Source: Bacteroidetes bacterium 2013_40CM_41_45 (GTDB lineage: Bacteria > Bacteroidota > Bacteroidia > AKYH767-A > 2013-40CM-41-45). From it: a DNA stretch of 64,000 nt. The notes beneath the pieces are model-generated. The model was not told the DNA's origin, did not search any database, and saw only the letters and a program-made list of their open reading frames with translations. Location: contig NGFH01000004.1 of NCBI GenBank assembly GCA_002215675.1, forward strand, positions 62,001-126,000, given 5' to 3'. This document shows, in pieces, positions 42,651-52,488 of the stretch (positions are counted from its first letter, which is position 1; every line of letters begins with the position of its first letter). The position numbers and the translations under genes were made by a program.

Positions 42651-42668
42651 TGTGGAATAATTTCCACA
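42651..42668. promoter_or_regulatory. Palindromic site 1, before the ferredoxin gene
   Basis: TGTGGAATAATTTCCACA, a perfect 7-bp inverted repeat around TAAT. It shares TGTnG-N5-TTTnnACA with sites at 43173, 44080, 45534 and 52345. It ends 123 bases before the ferredoxin ATG. Confidence 0.6.
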
Positions 42669-43172: not shown

Positions 43173-43190
43173 TGTTGCTGCTTTTCTACA
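43173..43190. promoter_or_regulatory. Palindromic site 2, before the Lys-rich coiled-coil gene
   Basis: TGTTGCTGCTTTTCTACA fits TGTnG-N5-TTTnnACA and ends 141 bases before the ATG at 43332. CTGCTTTT within it also pairs with AAAAGCAG at 43196-43203. A separate 7-bp hairpin (GTGTACC with GGTACAC) sits at 43153-43170. Confidence 0.5.
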
Positions 43191-43273
43191 GATATAAAAG
43201 CAGAAATTCATCTATAAAAAATAGTTGCGCGAAAATTTATTTATTGCGCAGGTTTCGTGAAGAACCTTAGTGT

Positions 43274-43286
43274 GGTATGCTATTGG
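43274..43286 (+). promoter_or_regulatory. GGTAT...TTGG box before the Lys-rich coiled-coil gene
   Basis: GGTATGCTATTGG then TTTATTAT, very similar to GGTATGTTTTTGG then TTTATTAT at 44180. It lies 45 bases before the ATG. Confidence 0.45.
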
Positions 43287-43331
43287 TTTATTATATCCAC
43301 GGAAAAAACTGTTTTAAAAAAGGAGGATAAA

Positions 43332-43973
43332 ATGAAAACCCTAAAATTGAAAGTAATGTTTGCTTTGGGAGCATTAATAATATGCACCTTTAGTATTTCA
43401 GATGCTGCATTAACAGGCATGGCAGGTGTGACTCCGGGTAGTAAATTTGAGAAAGAAAATTCGGATATAAGGCACGATTTAGGAAATATTAATATGCAGA
43501 AGGACAGGATTCAGTTTCTTGATGCAAAATATAAAGCAGATAAAAAAGCCGGTAATAAAGTGGCTATGCTTGCCGACCAGAAAGAGCTGGAGAAAGCGAA
43601 AGCAGACCTGAAAAAACATAAAGCATACCTCGTAGCCGATAAAAGAGACTTGATGAAAGACCATAATCTTGCTATCAGCGAGCAGAAGAAAGAAATAAGG
43701 AAAGACAGAAGCAATGTGAGTGCAAACAGAAGAAAACTCGATAAAGAACTTGCGAAAGGCAATGAAACAGCAGCACAGGAATGTGTTAGCAAAATTGTCC
43801 GGCATCAGAACGATCTGAAGAATGATAAAACAGCTCTTCATAACGCAAGAACGGACAGGAATGAGAATATTTTAGCTGTAAACAAGGATATTAAAAAATC
43901 CCAAGGTCAGCCTGCTGCTGTTCTTACTGCTGAAAATACGGTTGCTCATGTCGACAACTGGATAAGTAAATAG
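43332..43973 (+). CDS. Exported Lys-rich coiled-coil protein
   Basis: 213 residues from the ATG at 43332 (signal peptide MKTLKLKVMFALGALIICTF..SDAA). The start is set by an AAGGAGG sequence 7 bases upstream, an unusually strong ribosome-binding site for this phylum. The mature protein is almost all charged helix (DLGNINMQKDRIQFLDAKYK, KELEKAKADLKKHKAYLVAD, KEIRKDRSNVSANRRKLDKE), so it is probably a periplasmic coiled coil. Strikingly rich in Lys, Asp and Asn. Function unknown; it may be stress-related, from the shared upstream sites. Confidence 0.78.
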   Translation: MKTLKLKVMFALGALIICTFSISDAALTGMAGVTPGSKFEKENSDIRHDLGNINMQKDRIQFLDAKYKADKKAGNKVAMLADQKELEKAKADLKKHKAYLVADKRDLMKDHNLAISEQKKEIRKDRSNVSANRRKLDKELAKGNETAAQECVSKIVRHQNDLKNDKTALHNARTDRNENILAVNKDIKKSQGQPAAVLTAENTVAHVDNWISK

Positions 43974-44079: not shown

Positions 44080-44097
44080 TGTTGCACTTTTTCTACA
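44080..44097. promoter_or_regulatory. Palindromic site 3, before the OmpA lipoprotein gene
   Basis: TGTTGCACTTTTTCTACA fits TGTnG-N5-TTTnnACA and ends 138 bases before the ATG. It lies just after the preceding terminator. Confidence 0.5.
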
Positions 44098-44179: not shown

Positions 44180-44192
44180 GGTATGTTTTTGG
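44180..44192 (+). promoter_or_regulatory. GGTATGTTTTTGG box before the OmpA lipoprotein gene
   Basis: It lies 43 bases before the ATG. It differs from the box at 45604 (GGTATATTTTTGG) at one base. Confidence 0.5.
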
Positions 44193-44235: not shown

Positions 44236-45027
44236 ATGAAAACATCAATCAAAGTAGTTTTATTTTTATCGGTCATCGGGATAATTTCGCTTGGCTCCTG
44301 TGTTTCTTCTAAGAAATATAAAGCTGAGTTGTCGAGGAATACAGAACTTCAGGAAAAAAACCAGGCATTGCAGGCAAGTAATGCAAAACTGGAGGGCAAT
44401 ATTAATCAGTTGAAAGGTACGGTTTCTTCTAACCAGCAGGATTTAAATACGAAAGACAGAATGCTTGCAGATGAGCAAAAGCGAATGAGAGACATGAAAG
44501 CGATGGTAGATGATGAGCGGAATGCCATCCGTAAGCTTAAACAGGAAGTTTGCAGCGCATTAAAATGTTTTACTCCTGATGAATTGAAGATAGAAGTAAG
44601 AAATGGAAAACTTTATGTATCCATGTCAGACAAGCTGTTGTTTCCTTCGGGGAGTGATGTAGTGAACCAGCGCGGCAAGGAAGCTATTTCAATGCTTGCG
44701 GCAGTCTTGAAAAACAGCGACTTGGAAGTAATGGTTGAAGGCCATACCGACCCCGTTCCGATTCATACGTCGCGCAATCCTGATAACTGGGATTTGAGCG
44801 TGCACCGTGCAACAAGTGTAACAAGGATTTTCATTGACAATGGAATTCCTGCCGAACGGATTATAGCAAGCGGTCGCGGCCCGTATCATCCTTTAGCCGA
44901 AAATGAATCAGCAGAAGGCCGCCAGACAAATCGCAGAACGGAAATTGTTCTTGCTCCGAAGCTGGATAAACTCTGGAAACTGACCGAACAGGAAGACATC
45001 AGTACATCATCATCAGAAAACAAATAA
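44236..45027 (+). CDS. OmpA-family lipoprotein with coiled-coil linker
   Basis: 263 residues. The lipobox ISLGSC places lipidated Cys22. Residues 30-110 form a coiled coil (KKYKAELSRNTELQEKNQAL, LADEQKRMRDMKAMVDDERN). The C-terminal OmpA domain (about 120-245) binds peptidoglycan: DKLLFPSGSDVV, VEGHTDPVPIHT, WDLSVHRATSV and GRQTNRRTEIVL. It is predicted to tie the outer membrane to the cell wall. The next gene, 43 bases on, may be co-transcribed. It carries palindromic site 3 and the GGTAT box upstream. Confidence 0.94.
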   Translation: MKTSIKVVLFLSVIGIISLGSCVSSKKYKAELSRNTELQEKNQALQASNAKLEGNINQLKGTVSSNQQDLNTKDRMLADEQKRMRDMKAMVDDERNAIRKLKQEVCSALKCFTPDELKIEVRNGKLYVSMSDKLLFPSGSDVVNQRGKEAISMLAAVLKNSDLEVMVEGHTDPVPIHTSRNPDNWDLSVHRATSVTRIFIDNGIPAERIIASGRGPYHPLAENESAEGRQTNRRTEIVLAPKLDKLWKLTEQEDISTSSSENK

Positions 45028-45070: not shown

Positions 45071-45448
45071 ATGAAAAGGTTAATTGGATTTATAATAATG
45101 GCATTTGCTTTGAATGCATTTGCCCAGGAACCGGTAGCGCCTGAAAAAAAAGAACCAGCGGCACAGGTTCAACAAAAAAGTGAACAGAAGGTCAAAGAGG
45201 GCATAAGTTTTAAATCAGGAAAGGCATGGATGACTAAGGACGGAAAAACCACAGCTCTCGATAAAGAGGTAACTCTCATGAATGGAACCAGAGTAACTCC
45301 TTCAGGCGCTGTGATTATGAAGGATGGTTCAAAGGCAATGTTGAAAGAAGGTGATTTTGTTTCGATGGAAGGAGCGGTAGAAAGAAAAGTCCCGGTGAAA
45401 GCAACAGATAGAACGAAGGCCTATCCTGAAAAGGACGCTAACAAGTAA
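45071..45448 (+). CDS. DUF6799-type exported protein
   Basis: 125 residues with signal peptide MKRLIGFIIMAFALNAFAQ. A Glu/Lys/Gln-rich linker is followed by the domain SFKSGKAWMTKDGKTTALD, VTLMNGTRVTPSGAVIMKDG and KAMLKEGDFVSMEG, the repeated strand pattern of DUF6799. Probably periplasmic; function unknown. It lies 43 bases after the OmpA gene, with no promoter box of the local type, so it is probably in the same transcript. A terminator follows. Confidence 0.82.
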   Translation: MKRLIGFIIMAFALNAFAQEPVAPEKKEPAAQVQQKSEQKVKEGISFKSGKAWMTKDGKTTALDKEVTLMNGTRVTPSGAVIMKDGSKAMLKEGDFVSMEGAVERKVPVKATDRTKAYPEKDANK

Positions 45449-45472
45449 ATTTGCTTTCTGAATCCGGATTTA

Positions 45473-45510
45473 TAAAACCATCGGTGAGAACCGGTGGTTT
45501 TATTTTTTTT
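45473..45510 (+). terminator. Terminator after the DUF6799 gene
   Basis: AAAACCA-T-CGGT pairs with ACCG-G-TGGTTTT around GAGA and is followed by ATTTTTTTT. Confidence 0.92.
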
Positions 45511-45533
45511 GCAGGCTGAAAGTCCTCACTCCT

Positions 45534-45551
45534 TGTTGAATTGTTTCCACA
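45534..45551. promoter_or_regulatory. Palindromic site 4, before the 21-residue ORF
   Basis: TGTTGAATTGTTTCCACA fits TGTnG-N5-TTTnnACA and ends 109 bases before the tiny ORF at 45661. Confidence 0.5.
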
Positions 45552-45603
45552 TTTTGTCCGGCCAGGTTTCAGAAAAATCGATTTTTAAGGCGGAAAATGT
45601 CTT

Positions 45604-45616
45604 GGTATATTTTTGG
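45604..45616 (+). promoter_or_regulatory. GGTATATTTTTGG box, contains an exact TATTTTTG
   Basis: It lies 44 bases before the ATG of the 21-residue ORF, the same spacing (42-46 bases) that similar boxes have from the ferredoxin, coiled-coil and OmpA starts. Confidence 0.5.
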
Positions 45617-45660
45617 AAATGATACATGTAAGTGAATTTTTATATCAACAACTTACGGGT

Positions 45661-45726
45661 ATGAAAAGAATATACTTCAACTATTTTAAAGGAAGATTTG
45701 CTCTGGTACGATGGGTTATCGCATAG
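45661..45726 (+). CDS. Possible 21-residue leader peptide
   Basis: The ORF encodes MKRIYFNYFKGRFALVRWVI then A and stop. It is aromatic and basic. Its start has the same spacing from a GGTAT box as three real genes nearby. Its last codons and stop form the left arm of a 13-bp hairpin (45713-45749), as in leader-peptide attenuators. No homology is known to me. It could also be a small-RNA region that happens to be open. Confidence 0.35.
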   Translation: MKRIYFNYFKGRFALVRWVIA

Positions 45727-45749
45727 TTGCTTTAATTATGCGATAACCC
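45713..45749 (+). ncRNA. Strong hairpin after the 21-residue ORF
   Basis: GGGTTATCGCATA (45713-45725) pairs perfectly with TATGCGATAACCC (45737-45749) around an 11-base loop. There is no T-run next to it. About 22 bases on, GACT-CGA-AGTC and CCCTTTTTTT (45771-45791) look like a short terminator. Together they suggest a transcript of about 170 bases, or an attenuator ahead of the T9SS gene. Confidence 0.45.
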
Positions 45750-45853
45750 CATACTAATCGCCAGACACGAGACTCGAAGTCCCCTTTTTTTAAATTTCTT
45801 TTATCAATTTAACCCTTGTTCTGTGACTAGAGAACAGCAAAATAAAAATCATC

Positions 45854-47641
45854 ATGAAAAAAAAGATACTTAATGCAGGAGTTATTGCTATAACACTGCT
45901 GTTATTCACAACATCATTTTCATCGGGCGCAACATTTACCGCAGTGGCTTCGGGCAACTGGAGCAGCACTACAACATGGGGTGGTTCTGTTCCGCCTTTA
46001 ACTATTATCTCCGACCAGGTTATTATTTCTTCAGGCATTAATGTAACAATGGATAACAGTGTTACACTGAATGGAGGGCTTGCCATGCTTAATGTTGAAG
46101 GTACATTATCATCAGCATCGAGTGGAATGCTTACCGTTATGGCAGGTTCGGTAACAGGCGCGGGAGCCATTAATGTAGGCAGCGTGGTATGTCAAACAGC
46201 TGCGATAGTTTCTTTCACCGGCTCGCTTACGGCAAACACGCTTACATGTAACGTGCTGAACTTGCTTGTTGCTGCCGACATTATGGTGAACCAGACTTTG
46301 AACATGTCCTCAGGGGTGCTGAATCTGCAAACAGGCAGCAGCCTCGATGTCGGAGCAAATGCTACGATTGTTATTTCGGGAGGAATGATCACTCTAAACG
46401 GAGGTACGGTAGGTTTGTCCGGTTCATACAATGTCAGTTATATTGTAGGGTCGGCGGTTGCAGGAGTTGAGTTAAGCGGTTCAGGGCTAAATAATGTAGC
46501 CGTTAATGTAGGCATCGGAAACACAGTAACTCTTTCTTCGGATTTAACCGTTTCGGGAACGCTGACATTGACCAGCGGCACATTGGTGCTTGCAGGAAAC
46601 GACCTTACCCTATCGGGCAATCTATCCGCAACAGCAGGCGCAACAGTTTCTTCTACCGCAAGCTCTAATATTTCCATCAGCGCCGCAACTTCTCTTTCCG
46701 GTGTTCTCACTTTTAGTTCTTCGGGTAATGTCGTAAATAATTTTACAGTAAATATCGGAAGCAATGGTTCCGTTATGCTCGGCTCAGACATCGTTATCCA
46801 GGGAATGTTAAGCCTGGTAAGCGGTCATTTGAATGTAGGCAGTTACAATGCTGAAATAGGAGCAAGCGGTTCTGTTACCGGTGAATCAGGTTCGGCTTAT
46901 GTTATCACGGGCGTTACAGGCAGTTTATCGATGCACTTAACAGCAGGTGCCTCTGCTTCCACGACATTTCCGGTGGGCACATCCGTTCATTTTTGCCCGG
47001 CACAAATACTTTTGAATGCAGGTTCTGCAAGCGGAGAAGTTTTTGTTGGTGCTGCAACCGATGTTTATGCGCAGGGAACGTCAGGAGTAGATATCTCTAT
47101 GACACAGCCCCTTGTAGACGCAACATGGTTTATTCATTCAGACATTATTGCTAATCTTAACATGAATATCAGGCTAATGTGGGCTGCGACAGCGGAAGTG
47201 AATGCGTTTAACCGCACTATGGCTTATATCTCGCACTATATGGCAGGAAACTGGGATGTAACTGCAACAGCATCTGCAAACATAGAAGCAAACGGAATGT
47301 ACAGCTTAAGCAGGAATAACATCACTTCACTAAGTCCCTTTGCTGTGTTTGACCAGAATACAATTCCAACCGCCGTGGAAAACGAGGCTGCCGACCTTAT
47401 TTCATTTAATGTTTATCCAAACCCTGCGGCTGATTTCATTAACGTGAAATATCCCCTAAGTTCTCTAAATTCCGAACCCACATACATTGAAGTTGTCGAT
47501 ATCCTCGGCTCAAGAATATATAGTGCGCGGTTAACAAAAGTTAACACGATAATTCCCGTAGAAAGATTTCTTCCGGGTAACTACTTCATCCGCGTTTACA
47601 ACGACAATATGAGTACAGTAAAGAAATTCATCAAAATGTAA
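45854..47641 (+). CDS. T9SS-secreted beta-helix-like adhesin
   Basis: 595 residues with signal peptide MKKKILNAGVIAITLLLFTT. The region 35-400 is a monotonous Ser/Thr/Gly/Val/Asn pattern of short strands (GNTVTLSSDLTVSGTLTLTS, ASGSVTGESGSAYVITGVTG) typical of a right-handed beta-helix. Residues from about 525 (ISFNVYPNPAADFINVKYPL, PGNYFIRVYNDN) are the T9SS sorting tail. Predicted to be a surface protein, perhaps adhesive. It follows a 200-base untranslated region that holds a leader-like ORF and hairpin. Function inferred only from composition. Confidence 0.87.
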   Translation: MKKKILNAGVIAITLLLFTTSFSSGATFTAVASGNWSSTTTWGGSVPPLTIISDQVIISSGINVTMDNSVTLNGGLAMLNVEGTLSSASSGMLTVMAGSVTGAGAINVGSVVCQTAAIVSFTGSLTANTLTCNVLNLLVAADIMVNQTLNMSSGVLNLQTGSSLDVGANATIVISGGMITLNGGTVGLSGSYNVSYIVGSAVAGVELSGSGLNNVAVNVGIGNTVTLSSDLTVSGTLTLTSGTLVLAGNDLTLSGNLSATAGATVSSTASSNISISAATSLSGVLTFSSSGNVVNNFTVNIGSNGSVMLGSDIVIQGMLSLVSGHLNVGSYNAEIGASGSVTGESGSAYVITGVTGSLSMHLTAGASASTTFPVGTSVHFCPAQILLNAGSASGEVFVGAATDVYAQGTSGVDISMTQPLVDATWFIHSDIIANLNMNIRLMWAATAEVNAFNRTMAYISHYMAGNWDVTATASANIEANGMYSLSRNNITSLSPFAVFDQNTIPTAVENEAADLISFNVYPNPAADFINVKYPLSSLNSEPTYIEVVDILGSRIYSARLTKVNTIIPVERFLPGNYFIRVYNDNMSTVKKFIKM

Positions 47642-47670: not shown

Positions 47671-47702
47671 AAAAAAGGACTCTTAACGGAGTCCTTTTTT
47701 TA
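47671..47702. terminator. Terminator between convergent T9SS gene and trehalose operon
   Basis: AAAAAAGGACTC pairs with GGAGTCCTTTTTT around TTAAC, with A-run and T-run on either side, so it can work in both directions. Confidence 0.92.
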
Positions 47703-47718
47703 TTAGCATATCTTAAAC

Positions 47719-49920
47719 TCAGGAATGCAAATCATTTAAAAGATTTACAACGTCCTCCTGGGTTGGCACATTTAAAAGCGCATAAGATGATTGCTGCCCG
47801 ACTTTTATAGAGAATGCTCCGGCAGGCATTACCCTGAAAAGGTCCTCATCCGTCCAGTCGTCACCGGCAGCAAGGATGAAGCGGTTGTTCTTTTTTATTT
47901 TAGAAAGCCAGTGCAAGGCAGCCACGCCTTTATCAATACCGGAGTTGCGCATTTCAAGAGCGTTGTTGCTGTTAAGTATTTGTATGTCGAGATTCGAAGT
48001 AAAACTTACAAGATGATTTACCAGTTCCTTAACCCGCAAAGCAGCAAACACCGGCTCTGACATGCGATAGTGAAATACAACAGAAAATTCTTTTTCTTCC
48101 ACGTAAGAACCCGGTAATCTTTCTGCAAAGTGATTCATAATCGGGATAATTCTTTTCTTCCAGTTACTCCTCACCGGTTTCAGGAGTTGCCAGGCATGAT
48201 TTTTTTCTTTCAGCCAGATGCCATGCTCTGCAACCAAATTAAGGGGCAAATGAGAAAACCAATTTTTCAGCGTGTGCCGGTCTCGCCCGCTTATAATTAC
48301 AACTTCTGTATTCTTCATGCCTGATAAGCGCTCAAGAATGCTCATAAGCCTTTTATCGGGTGATGCATCTTCGGGATGATTGACGAAAGGGACCAGCGTT
48401 CCGTCATAATCAAGAAATAAAATATGCGAAGCTGAACGGCCGAATTTTGTGAGGATTTTTTTTCTTAGCTGCGGAGTAATCATTTTCGCGCGCAAACGTC
48501 TCTGTTTCTTTTTTATCGATTTTAATTGTGACAAAAAATCATCGGCCCACCTGAATACGTCATAGGTCATCAATCGTTTTTGCATCACTTCCAAATGCTT
48601 CTTTTGTTTTTTTTCATCGGCATGAAGAGCTTCCACTAATGCATTGCTTATTTCTTCGGTGTTGGGATTGATAACAATAGATTCGGCAAGTTCATCCGCA
48701 GCGCCGGCCATCTCACTTAGGATAAGCACGCCCTTATTATCTGTGCGCGAAGCGATATATTCCTTAGCAATAAGATTCATGCCGTCACGAAGGGGAGTTA
48801 CAAGAGCAATATCACTTGTATTGTATAATGCAATCAGCTCCGTAAAAGAAAGCGAGCGGTATTGATAATGAATAGGTACCCATTCAAAGTTTCCATACCT
48901 GCCGTTAATGCTGCCAACCAGCTCATCAATCTGGCTTTTTATGGCCTGGTAACTTTCAACGCCAATCCTGCTGGGAACAATTATCATCATCAATATCACT
49001 TTCTCCATCCATTGCGGGTTATTTTTCAGAAAATGGTCATATCCTCTCAGGCGATTTAAAATTCCTTTTGAATAATCTTGTCGGTCGAGAGAAAGAATTA
49101 ATTTTTTTCCCGGGATAGTTTTCCGCAGCAACGTTTTTTCCTTCTTCACTTTTTGACTCAGCGCAGCAGAATGATATTTATGGTAATCAATGCCCATGGG
49201 GAATGTATCTACTTTTACAAGGCGGTTGTTGTAGGAAACTTCTCCCATGTGATTATGTAAGCCAAGAATGCGTAGCGTGCTTCGCAGAAAATATGTCCTG
49301 TAGTCATGAGTGTGAAAGCCGATAAGGTCTGCACCGTACATCCCCTCAAAAATCTGCCTTCTCCATTCGCTGGGTAACAGGCGAAACACTTCATAAGACG
49401 GAAAAGGTATATGAAGAAAAAAACCGATTTCTGCGTCCGGCATTTTTTTTCGCAACATGGCAGGAAGCAGCATGAGGTGATAATCATGTATCCAGATTAC
49501 GTCATTGCGTTTTGCGATGCGGCACAGCGCTTCGCAATAAACCTGGTTTACTGCAACATATTCTTCCCAGTTTTCTGTTTCATAAGATGCAAGAGAAGGA
49601 AAATAATGAAAGAGAGGCCAAATGGTTTTATTGCAAAATCCCTGGTAAAATCTTTCCATAACATCTTCGGACAAGAAAACACTCTGTACGTCAAACTTTT
49701 TTAAGATTTCTTTCCTGACCTTATTTTCATCACTCTCGGGAACTGCTGTGCCCGGCCATCCCAGCCAGGTAATTTTATTGCCAGGTGATTTTTTCTTCAC
49801 CCGTTCTACGTAGGTACGCAAGCCGGATGCAAGTCCGCCCGAACTTTCATCATAGCGATATTTTCCGCCTTCACTTACAATGCTGACGGGTGCCCGGTTT
49901 GAAACAATGATAAGTCCCAT
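47719..49920 (-). CDS. Bifunctional trehalose-6-phosphate synthase/phosphatase
   Basis: 733 residues, OtsA fused to OtsB. Residues 1-465 are the glycosyltransferase (IIVSNRAPVSI, IWIHDYHLMLLPAML, GFFLHIPFPSYEVFRLLP, GFHTHDYRTYFL, LVTPLRDGMNL), which joins UDP- or GDP-glucose to glucose-6-phosphate. From about 485 the HAD phosphatase begins (FLDYDGTLVPFVNHPE, EVVIISGRDR, AAGDDWTDEDLFRVMP) and removes the phosphate to give trehalose. Trehalose protects against drying and osmotic stress. It lies 5 bases after the trehalase gene in the same operon, so making and breaking are co-expressed. Confidence 0.96.
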   Translation of the reverse strand: MGLIIVSNRAPVSIVSEGGKYRYDESSGGLASGLRTYVERVKKKSPGNKITWLGWPGTAVPESDENKVRKEILKKFDVQSVFLSEDVMERFYQGFCNKTIWPLFHYFPSLASYETENWEEYVAVNQVYCEALCRIAKRNDVIWIHDYHLMLLPAMLRKKMPDAEIGFFLHIPFPSYEVFRLLPSEWRRQIFEGMYGADLIGFHTHDYRTYFLRSTLRILGLHNHMGEVSYNNRLVKVDTFPMGIDYHKYHSAALSQKVKKEKTLLRKTIPGKKLILSLDRQDYSKGILNRLRGYDHFLKNNPQWMEKVILMMIIVPSRIGVESYQAIKSQIDELVGSINGRYGNFEWVPIHYQYRSLSFTELIALYNTSDIALVTPLRDGMNLIAKEYIASRTDNKGVLILSEMAGAADELAESIVINPNTEEISNALVEALHADEKKQKKHLEVMQKRLMTYDVFRWADDFLSQLKSIKKKQRRLRAKMITPQLRKKILTKFGRSASHILFLDYDGTLVPFVNHPEDASPDKRLMSILERLSGMKNTEVVIISGRDRHTLKNWFSHLPLNLVAEHGIWLKEKNHAWQLLKPVRSNWKKRIIPIMNHFAERLPGSYVEEKEFSVVFHYRMSEPVFAALRVKELVNHLVSFTSNLDIQILNSNNALEMRNSGIDKGVAALHWLSKIKKNNRFILAAGDDWTDEDLFRVMPAGAFSIKVGQQSSYALLNVPTQEDVVNLLNDLHS

Positions 49921-49925
49921 AAAAA

Positions 49926-51119
49926 TTAACTATCTCCGAATTGATTCAACAAGCGGACAAAAACTGCATTGGTCCATCCAAAGCCCGACTGGGTGGGATA
50001 ACGCTCCGATTTACCTATAGTGCATTTAACAACATTATATTTTTCCCACAGCTTTCCCGTTTCATCAAATACTTTTTTGTTCAGGTCTAAATATTTTTTT
50101 GCAAGCCGGGCTGCATCTTTATGGAACCCATAATTCATCAATCCTCTTATTACAATCCATTGCTGGTTGGGCCAGCCATTGGGATAGTCGTGCTGCTTAT
50201 ATTCTTTTGACAATCCTGTTGCCTGCGAGTTGGCCAGCCCCCCGGCATATTCAAACTTGTCAAGGTTATCGATGATTTTTCTTGCCTGGGTATATGTAGC
50301 CATTCTGGCCCATAGCGGGTAGAAGCCGGCAATGGAATAAAAGCTGCTCTGCCGTTTGTGCTTATAATCGTAATCAAAATAAAAACCCTTATTATAATTC
50401 CACATCAGTTTGTTTATCTTTCTTCTCCTTTTTTCTGACTGAAGAATATATGCTTCAGATTTTTTATAATTGCGAATGCTCTTATAAAATTCCGCCAGGT
50501 CCGTTTCGTATTTATATAAAGCACAGTTTAAATCTACCGGCAGATAATTGAGGCAGCGGTTCCTGAATCGTGAGGTCATGTCCCAACCCGATTCGTGTTC
50601 AGCGGCAAGATGAGTGATATAATGGTCGCAGTAGCGCGAAAGCCCTTCATAAACGATATGAATCTCTGTGAGCTTTTTGTTCATCCAATAACTATTCAGC
50701 TCATGTTCTGCAGCCGCCATAGTGGTTTTCATCCAATGCAAGTCATTGTTCACATTGAAAACTTCCCTTGCCATGGTAGATAAAAACGGAATTTGCGAGG
50801 AACCCAGGTTATAAAACCGGTTGCGCATGGGAATAATGTTAAACCGCTTTTGCAGGAAAATAAAATTATCAATCATGCCTTTGGCAATATCTGCCCGGCC
50901 GCATTTTACCAAACCAACAATAATGAAATAGCTATCCCAATAAAACTGGTCATCCTTATAAATGGAATTGTCGGGTGAAATGAATTTATGGGGGAGACCG
51001 AGATGTATAAACTCATCATGTGGATAATAACAGGTAATTTCCTTCCAATATTTTTCAATATATCTTGAGCAGTCCTTGTAATCTTTAGCGGTTATTACTG
51101 TTTTGATATTTTTTTTCAT
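49926..51119 (-). CDS. GH37 trehalase
   Basis: 397 residues of glycoside hydrolase family 37, which splits trehalose into two glucose molecules. Signatures are DDQFYWDSYFIIVGL, AEHESGWDMTSRF (catalytic acid region), NGWPNQQWIVIRGLMNYG and EKYNVV near the C-terminus. It lacks a signal peptide and is shorter than typical 550-residue trehalases, so it is a compact cytoplasmic form. It is first in an operon with the trehalose synthase/phosphatase. Confidence 0.94.
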   Translation of the reverse strand: MKKNIKTVITAKDYKDCSRYIEKYWKEITCYYPHDEFIHLGLPHKFISPDNSIYKDDQFYWDSYFIIVGLVKCGRADIAKGMIDNFIFLQKRFNIIPMRNRFYNLGSSQIPFLSTMAREVFNVNNDLHWMKTTMAAAEHELNSYWMNKKLTEIHIVYEGLSRYCDHYITHLAAEHESGWDMTSRFRNRCLNYLPVDLNCALYKYETDLAEFYKSIRNYKKSEAYILQSEKRRRKINKLMWNYNKGFYFDYDYKHKRQSSFYSIAGFYPLWARMATYTQARKIIDNLDKFEYAGGLANSQATGLSKEYKQHDYPNGWPNQQWIVIRGLMNYGFHKDAARLAKKYLDLNKKVFDETGKLWEKYNVVKCTIGKSERYPTQSGFGWTNAVFVRLLNQFGDS

Positions 51120-52344: not shown

Positions 52345-52362
52345 TGTGGAATATTTTTCACA
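52345..52362. promoter_or_regulatory. Palindromic site 5, before the DUF4382 gene
   Basis: TGTGGAATATTTTTCACA fits TGTnG-N5-TTTnnACA and matches site 1 at 15 of 18 positions. It ends 126 bases before the ATG at 52489. No GGTAT-type box is seen here. Confidence 0.5.
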
Positions 52363-52488
52363 CGGGGATGTGTACTGAGGAAACCCATCCACACAATTCC
52401 AATGAAAATTCATCGAAAATCTTACAATAAGCGATGGAACCCTGTTTGCAACACCTGGAATATCAAATCATTTAAAAAAACATATATC

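Follow-up and report, generated by a model that had tools for sequence, protein, structure and literature searches.

A plausible regulated leader that carries a 21-codon ORF before a T9SS protein gene, under a promoter of a small, apparently organism-specific regulon

Introduction

Systems close to the locus described here are found in Bacteroides. For Bacteroides thetaiotaomicron, the accessible portion of one report describes short ORFs in long 5′ UTRs, intergenic small RNAs such as GibS, and a second promoter motif that is centred at −10 and −30 and is linked to oxidative-stress genes, while the primary promoter of the Bacteroidetes is given as TTTG at about −33 and TAnnTTTG at −7 (PMC7366714). 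According to the same portion, the median 5′ UTR of B. thetaiotaomicron is 32 nt, and long leaders are a minority. The locus analysed here lies in a 64-kb stretch (the window) of the 3.38-Mb genome of Bacteroidetes bacterium 2013_40CM_41_45, which is available in 11 contigs. The original prediction had proposed a short transcript at this place, either a small RNA, a stress microprotein or an attenuator for the T9SS gene that follows. Our analysis points instead, tentatively, to a longer leader of that gene and, with more confidence, to a small regulon to which its promoter would belong.

Results

The promoter and its copies in the genome

Upstream of the locus are an OmpA-family gene (44236-45027) and, after it, a DUF6799 gene (45071-45448). 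This unit is closed on the plus strand by a strong terminator at 45472-45510, a 14-bp stem followed by a T run that was detected by folding (45466-45512, −19.4 kcal/mol, z −5.97) and by the hairpin scan, so the locus appears to be shielded from upstream transcription. Behind it, on the same strand, come the 18-bp palindrome TGTTGAATTGTTTCCACA (45534-45551), a putative activator site, and the promoter box GGTATATTTTTGGAA (45604-45618), together called P4 here. They are the palindromic site 4 and the box of the original prediction, and a separate regulated promoter at this position is supported by the exact genome matches of both elements, by their spacing and by the promoter score. The numbered sites of that prediction were taken to be the four palindromes of the window, namely TGTGGAATAATTTCCACA at 42651, TGTTGCTGCTTTTCTACA at 43173, TGTTGCACTTTTTCTACA at 44080 and the one at 45534, in which seven, four, five and six of the nine base pairs, respectively, are symmetric. 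In the genome, the palindrome pattern TGTNGNANNNTTTCYACA is matched exactly at four places, one of them the site at 45534. When up to one mismatch is allowed, there are 19 matches against 18 for the reversed-pattern control, and thus only the exact matches and those within the cluster carry much meaning. One sequence with a single mismatch, TGTGGAATATTTTTCACA at 52345-52362, lies upstream of an ORF at 52402; no box was seen after it in the stretch inspected.

For the box pattern GGTATRNTWTTGGWW, too, there are four exact genome matches, at 43274, 44180 and 45604 of the window and in a copy on another contig (L005, 1501-1614; G000:C2:26486-26599), a count that is partly circular because the pattern was derived from these four boxes. 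A related 18-bp palindrome is present 70-101 bp upstream of every one of them. The copy L005 was found via its palindrome only, and the box that it carries downstream of the site, GGTATGCTTTTGGTT, is the one whose repetition at 43274 and 44180 had been noticed earlier; since the box was recognised only after the palindrome had located the copy, L005 is an independent point. The genes behind the exact boxes are the 238-aa ORF (43274), the OmpA gene (44180), a lipoprotein-like gene of 147 codons (L005) and the locus of the 21-codon ORF (45604). The distance from site to box is 99 bases in L005, 101 at 43274 and 100 at 44180, whereas it is 70 at P4, which is shorter by about three helical turns. 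Before the ferredoxin gene stands a looser box, GGTATATTTTTTTGT, at 86 bases past the palindrome at 42651. Moreover, the box at 43274 falls inside the listed reading of the 238-aa ORF (43257-43973, from GTG 43257), and this ORF therefore probably starts at ATG 43332, after AAGGAGGATAAA.

In the region 45440-45860 the highest primary-promoter score is found at 45607, and the scores from there to 45854 are ordinary; the scan detected no second good primary-type promoter between P4 and 45854, and it is blind to other promoter types, such as a possible promoter of the T9SS gene itself. Outside its own genome the promoter pair was found neither in 42 genomes of the order nor in the 395 genomes of the class (own genome included), with search patterns that recover two of the four copies known here; divergent copies could be missed. 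Near the relatives of the OmpA gene, palindrome and box occur together on one strand at none of 80 loci kept of 339, and among these 80 the nearest relative, from a Bacteroidia MAG (L063), has 55% identity and is not syntenic. That the exact box occurs four times in this genome and the pair, by these patterns, in none of the 394 other genomes of the class suggests a small, apparently organism-specific regulon around the 18-bp palindrome and the GGTATRNTWTTGG box. As far as the nucleotide sequence can tell, this regulon is a more solid result than the locus, where the best-supported element is its own, putatively stress-type promoter. Beside the regulon, on the minus strand, are located a trehalose-phosphate synthase/phosphatase fusion (47719-49920) and a trehalase-like gene (49926-51119), and trehalose genes in this neighbourhood are fitting for a stress locus.

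The 21-codon ORF

The predicted 21-residue ORF MKRIYFNYFKGRFALVRWVIA, a possible leader peptide or microprotein, is present on the plus strand from ATG 45661 to TAG 45724-45726. Its distance from the promoter box is 57 bases, and the corresponding distances are 55 for the ferredoxin gene, 56 for the OmpA gene and 58 for the 238-aa ORF, the last presuming the start at ATG 43332, so that all four promoters of the window agree within 55-58 bases. This match favours a real start codon at 45661. The rule fails in L005, where the distance is 134. An open ATG frame of at least 21 codons at +55 to +58 is expected by chance with a frequency of 0.017 in a Markov model of intergenic DNA and 0.039 over the window, both calculated post hoc. 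The length of the ORF means little by itself, as shuffling the 163-base stretch 5000 times gave an ATG ORF of at least 21 codons in 858 cases, and a better argument is where it lies with respect to the promoter.

By eye, the peptide is rich in aromatic and basic residues, and none of its amino acids forms a run. Pfam gave no match for the 21-aa and 44-aa frames, and the single weak NCBIfam match of the peptide (TetR, E 0.13) is not above chance, so a TetR fragment was dropped as an explanation. The DNA of the ORF has a similarity of 11.5 to the region for the DUF6799 signal peptide, compared with 6.2 ± 2.2 for shuffled codons (fraction 0.024); as four genes had been compared, an origin of the ORF from this signal peptide is not claimed.

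The hairpin and the terminator-like stem

A perfect 13-bp inverted repeat (45713-45725 and 45737-45749; with 16-base arms the identity is 94%) forms a strong hairpin at 45713-45749 of the plus strand. The hairpin stands as predicted; its 5′ arm runs into the stop codon of the ORF and takes in the T and A of TAG. The fold of 45700-45760 has −26.0 kcal/mol (z −5.94), and none of 200 shuffles was as good. The window contains two perfect hairpins of at least 13 bp, and such hairpins were found in one of 12 simulated 64-kb sequences; the exact hairpin had no match in viral contigs. The whole stretch 45620-45793 also folds better than its shuffles (z −4.78), which seems to be accounted for by the 13-bp hairpin: 45629-45709 (−9.0 versus −8.3 ± 3.5 kcal/mol) and 45753-45853 (−10.4 versus −9.2 ± 3.7) fold like shuffles.

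Further downstream comes the sequence GACT-CGA-AGTC, and after it CCC and a tract of seven T that ends at 45791, in agreement with the original prediction as regards the letters. As a terminator it is no stronger than chance, since the 4-bp stem in 45756-45793 folds with −2.0 kcal/mol (z +0.34) and 122 of 200 shuffles were as good. The terminator consensus scan, which requires five pairs, does not report a stem at 45772-45791, and this stem with its T7 tract is probably not an efficient terminator. For comparison, a hairpin of 12-14 bp stands after each of the neighbouring units examined, namely the 238-aa ORF, the OmpA-DUF6799 unit and the T9SS gene.

These data bear directly on the proposal of a short transcript ending near 45791. 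A stand-alone RNA of about 165 bases that shares the induction of the regulon and stops at the T7 tract, acting as a small RNA, as the mRNA of a microprotein or in both ways, is possible and somewhat doubtful. The locus has its own promoter, its start codon is placed as in the other genes of the cluster, the hairpin and the fold of the whole stretch are strong and the T run follows CCC, whereas the terminator stem is at chance level, the pieces 45629-45709 and 45753-45853 beside the hairpin fold no better than shuffles, and the searches given below found neither conservation nor an Rfam match above the gathering score. An end of the transcript at the T7 tract, as it had been predicted, is thus unsupported.

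The ORF (45661-45726) lies upstream of, and on the same strand as, the T9SS gene at 45854, as an attenuator would need. In translation-coupled attenuation, the position of the ribosome on the 21 codons would decide whether the polymerase enters the T9SS gene, and a ribosome at the stop codon, at the end of the 5′ arm, would melt the hairpin. Short ORFs in long leaders are reported for B. thetaiotaomicron in the accessible portion of PMC7366714. However, a competing structure is absent: no mutually exclusive pair of terminator and antiterminator was found in the folds of sub-stretches, the freed 3′ arm forms only a 5-bp hairpin away from the T run, and the peptide lacks a run of one amino acid. 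Since the alternative pairings of the arms build no terminator beside the T run, the predicted attenuator is unsupported in its classical form, and we consider this mechanism unlikely.

Conservation

In none of the searches for DNA, peptide, DUF6799, promoter pair, T9SS protein and RNA model did the genomes include another one with the genus label of this organism, and absence beyond the genus thus does not show absence of function. The DNA search gave matches in three of 61 genomes, one of which is its own. In the other two (G016 and G032) only 32-36 bases around CCCC-T-run-AAATTTCTTTTA match; they lie at one end of a repeat of about 110 bases that is not whole in the window, and the match was treated as composition. 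This repeat, which has inverted ends, occurs in two order-level relatives (L002, about 1500-1620; L003, about 1420-1535; L004, about 1495-1620), and only one of its ends resembles 45777-45806 of the window. The peptide search returned five of 40 other genomes at E 0.32 to 1.1, which is chance level. With an RNA model built from a single sequence (two identical rows) and strict filters, the search of 41 other genomes gave one match (E 0.32) besides the locus and its reverse strand. Rfam 15 has no match at the gathering score in the whole window; all of the ten permissive matches are below it and were taken as chance, including BSnc120 (27.7 of 114 bits), which lies antisense to the upstream terminator. 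Among the neighbours, DUF6799 relatives are present in two of ten other genomes of the family, and the T9SS protein has one other match among 41 genomes of the order (residues 299-505 of 519), near a contig end where the leader is unreadable. The conservation in relatives that the original prediction had named as a check was therefore found for none of DNA, peptide, RNA model and promoter pair in these genomes.

The same outcome would be expected of a relic: P4 would formerly have driven a different gene, with the ORF and hairpin as remnants or as a functionless inserted palindrome. The last codons and the stop are indeed largely encoded by the hairpin arm. On the other hand, palindrome and box are intact and 13 bp of the hairpin still pair perfectly, and we regard a relic as quite improbable.

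Discussion

The T9SS gene (45854-47641, plus strand), identified by domain search, encodes a 595-aa secreted protein with a T9SS type A sorting domain. It starts 62 bases past the T7 tract and is likely the main gene of the unit. Its stop codon is followed by a separate hairpin with a T run: a 12-bp inverted repeat at 47671-47700 whose 3′ arm enters the T run, likely the end of the unit. Given the terminator before P4, the lack of a good terminator or primary-type promoter in between, and this hairpin and T run, the simplest unit is P4, leader and T9SS gene. We therefore favour, with a likelihood that we put not far below even, the reading that the RNA from P4 is a leader that spans about 225 bases and includes an upstream ORF. 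P4 would start the RNA at about 45615-45630, and the polymerase would run through into the T9SS gene. The 21-codon ORF would be translated from the usual start-codon position of the regulon, and since its end lies within the 5′ arm, a ribosome finishing it would melt the hairpin. This hairpin, together with the poor stem at the T tract, would probably do no more than pause or slightly lower transcription, or mark a boundary of processing or stability.

For the leader we count the palindrome-box pair at all four exact boxes, the box-to-ATG distances of 55-58, the chance-level stem at 45772-45791 and the T9SS gene's own hairpin and T run. Against it we count the distance of 134 in L005, the post hoc chance of 1.7% and 3.9%, the minority of long leaders in B. 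thetaiotaomicron, and the T9SS start, whose masking is not beyond chance: the 5′ end of the RNA is predicted to be able to pair with the region before the ATG, which leaves an unpaired probability of 0.38, and a fraction of 0.12 of 100 shuffles was as low. If the leader exists, it would tie a surface-exported protein to a small envelope or stress regulon, and the short ORF could couple the T9SS protein to translation. A more elaborate version is a dual-function transcript in a genus-specific stress regulon that has a promoter type of its own, a transcript whose basic, aromatic 21-residue peptide is made while its translation opens the hairpin at its own stop and controls the T9SS-exported surface protein; this we consider very unlikely.

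Compared with known promoters, the box of P4 contains TATTTTTG and so fits the −7 motif TAnnTTTG of the Bacteroidetes primary promoter as given in the accessible portion of PMC7366714, whereas it has no TTTG at the right distance, and in the other three boxes (TATGCTATTGG, TATGTTTTTGG and TATGCTTTTGG) TTG is two bases too far from TA. All four boxes have GG-N9-GG in common, which can also be read as GG-N10-G(T/A). Sigma-54 promoters have GG at −24 and GC at −12 with ten bases between them, and enhancer sites upstream of the promoter. Their consensus is TGGCAC-N5-7-TTGCT in the accessible portion of PMC12316311. The boxes resemble it in the GG pair at their 5′ end, with the palindrome about 70-100 bp upstream as in an enhancer layout, and rpoN is present in the genome; they differ in having TTGG rather than TTGC and in a spacing that is one base off, and the sigma-54 pattern TGGNANGNNNNTTGCW, with 12 genome matches versus six for controls, is uninformative. 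By its motifs, the P4 type is neither a proper primary promoter nor one with the sigma-54 consensus.

The locus lies between genes, has a promoter to itself and is strongly structured, and in these points it is similar to Bacteroides small RNAs such as GibS; however, high-confidence small RNAs of Bacteroides have a Rho-independent terminator, according to the same portion of PMC7366714, and the stem here is at chance level. It differs from bacterial leader peptides in having no recognised stalling motif, no terminator/antiterminator pair and no conservation, and in being known from sequence alone. With the leader uORFs, for example the sORFs in leaders of B. thetaiotaomicron (PMC7366714, in the portion cited), it shares the order of promoter, short ORF and longer gene and a strong hairpin at the end of the ORF. 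A regulated leader that contains an upstream ORF is a plausible description of the locus.
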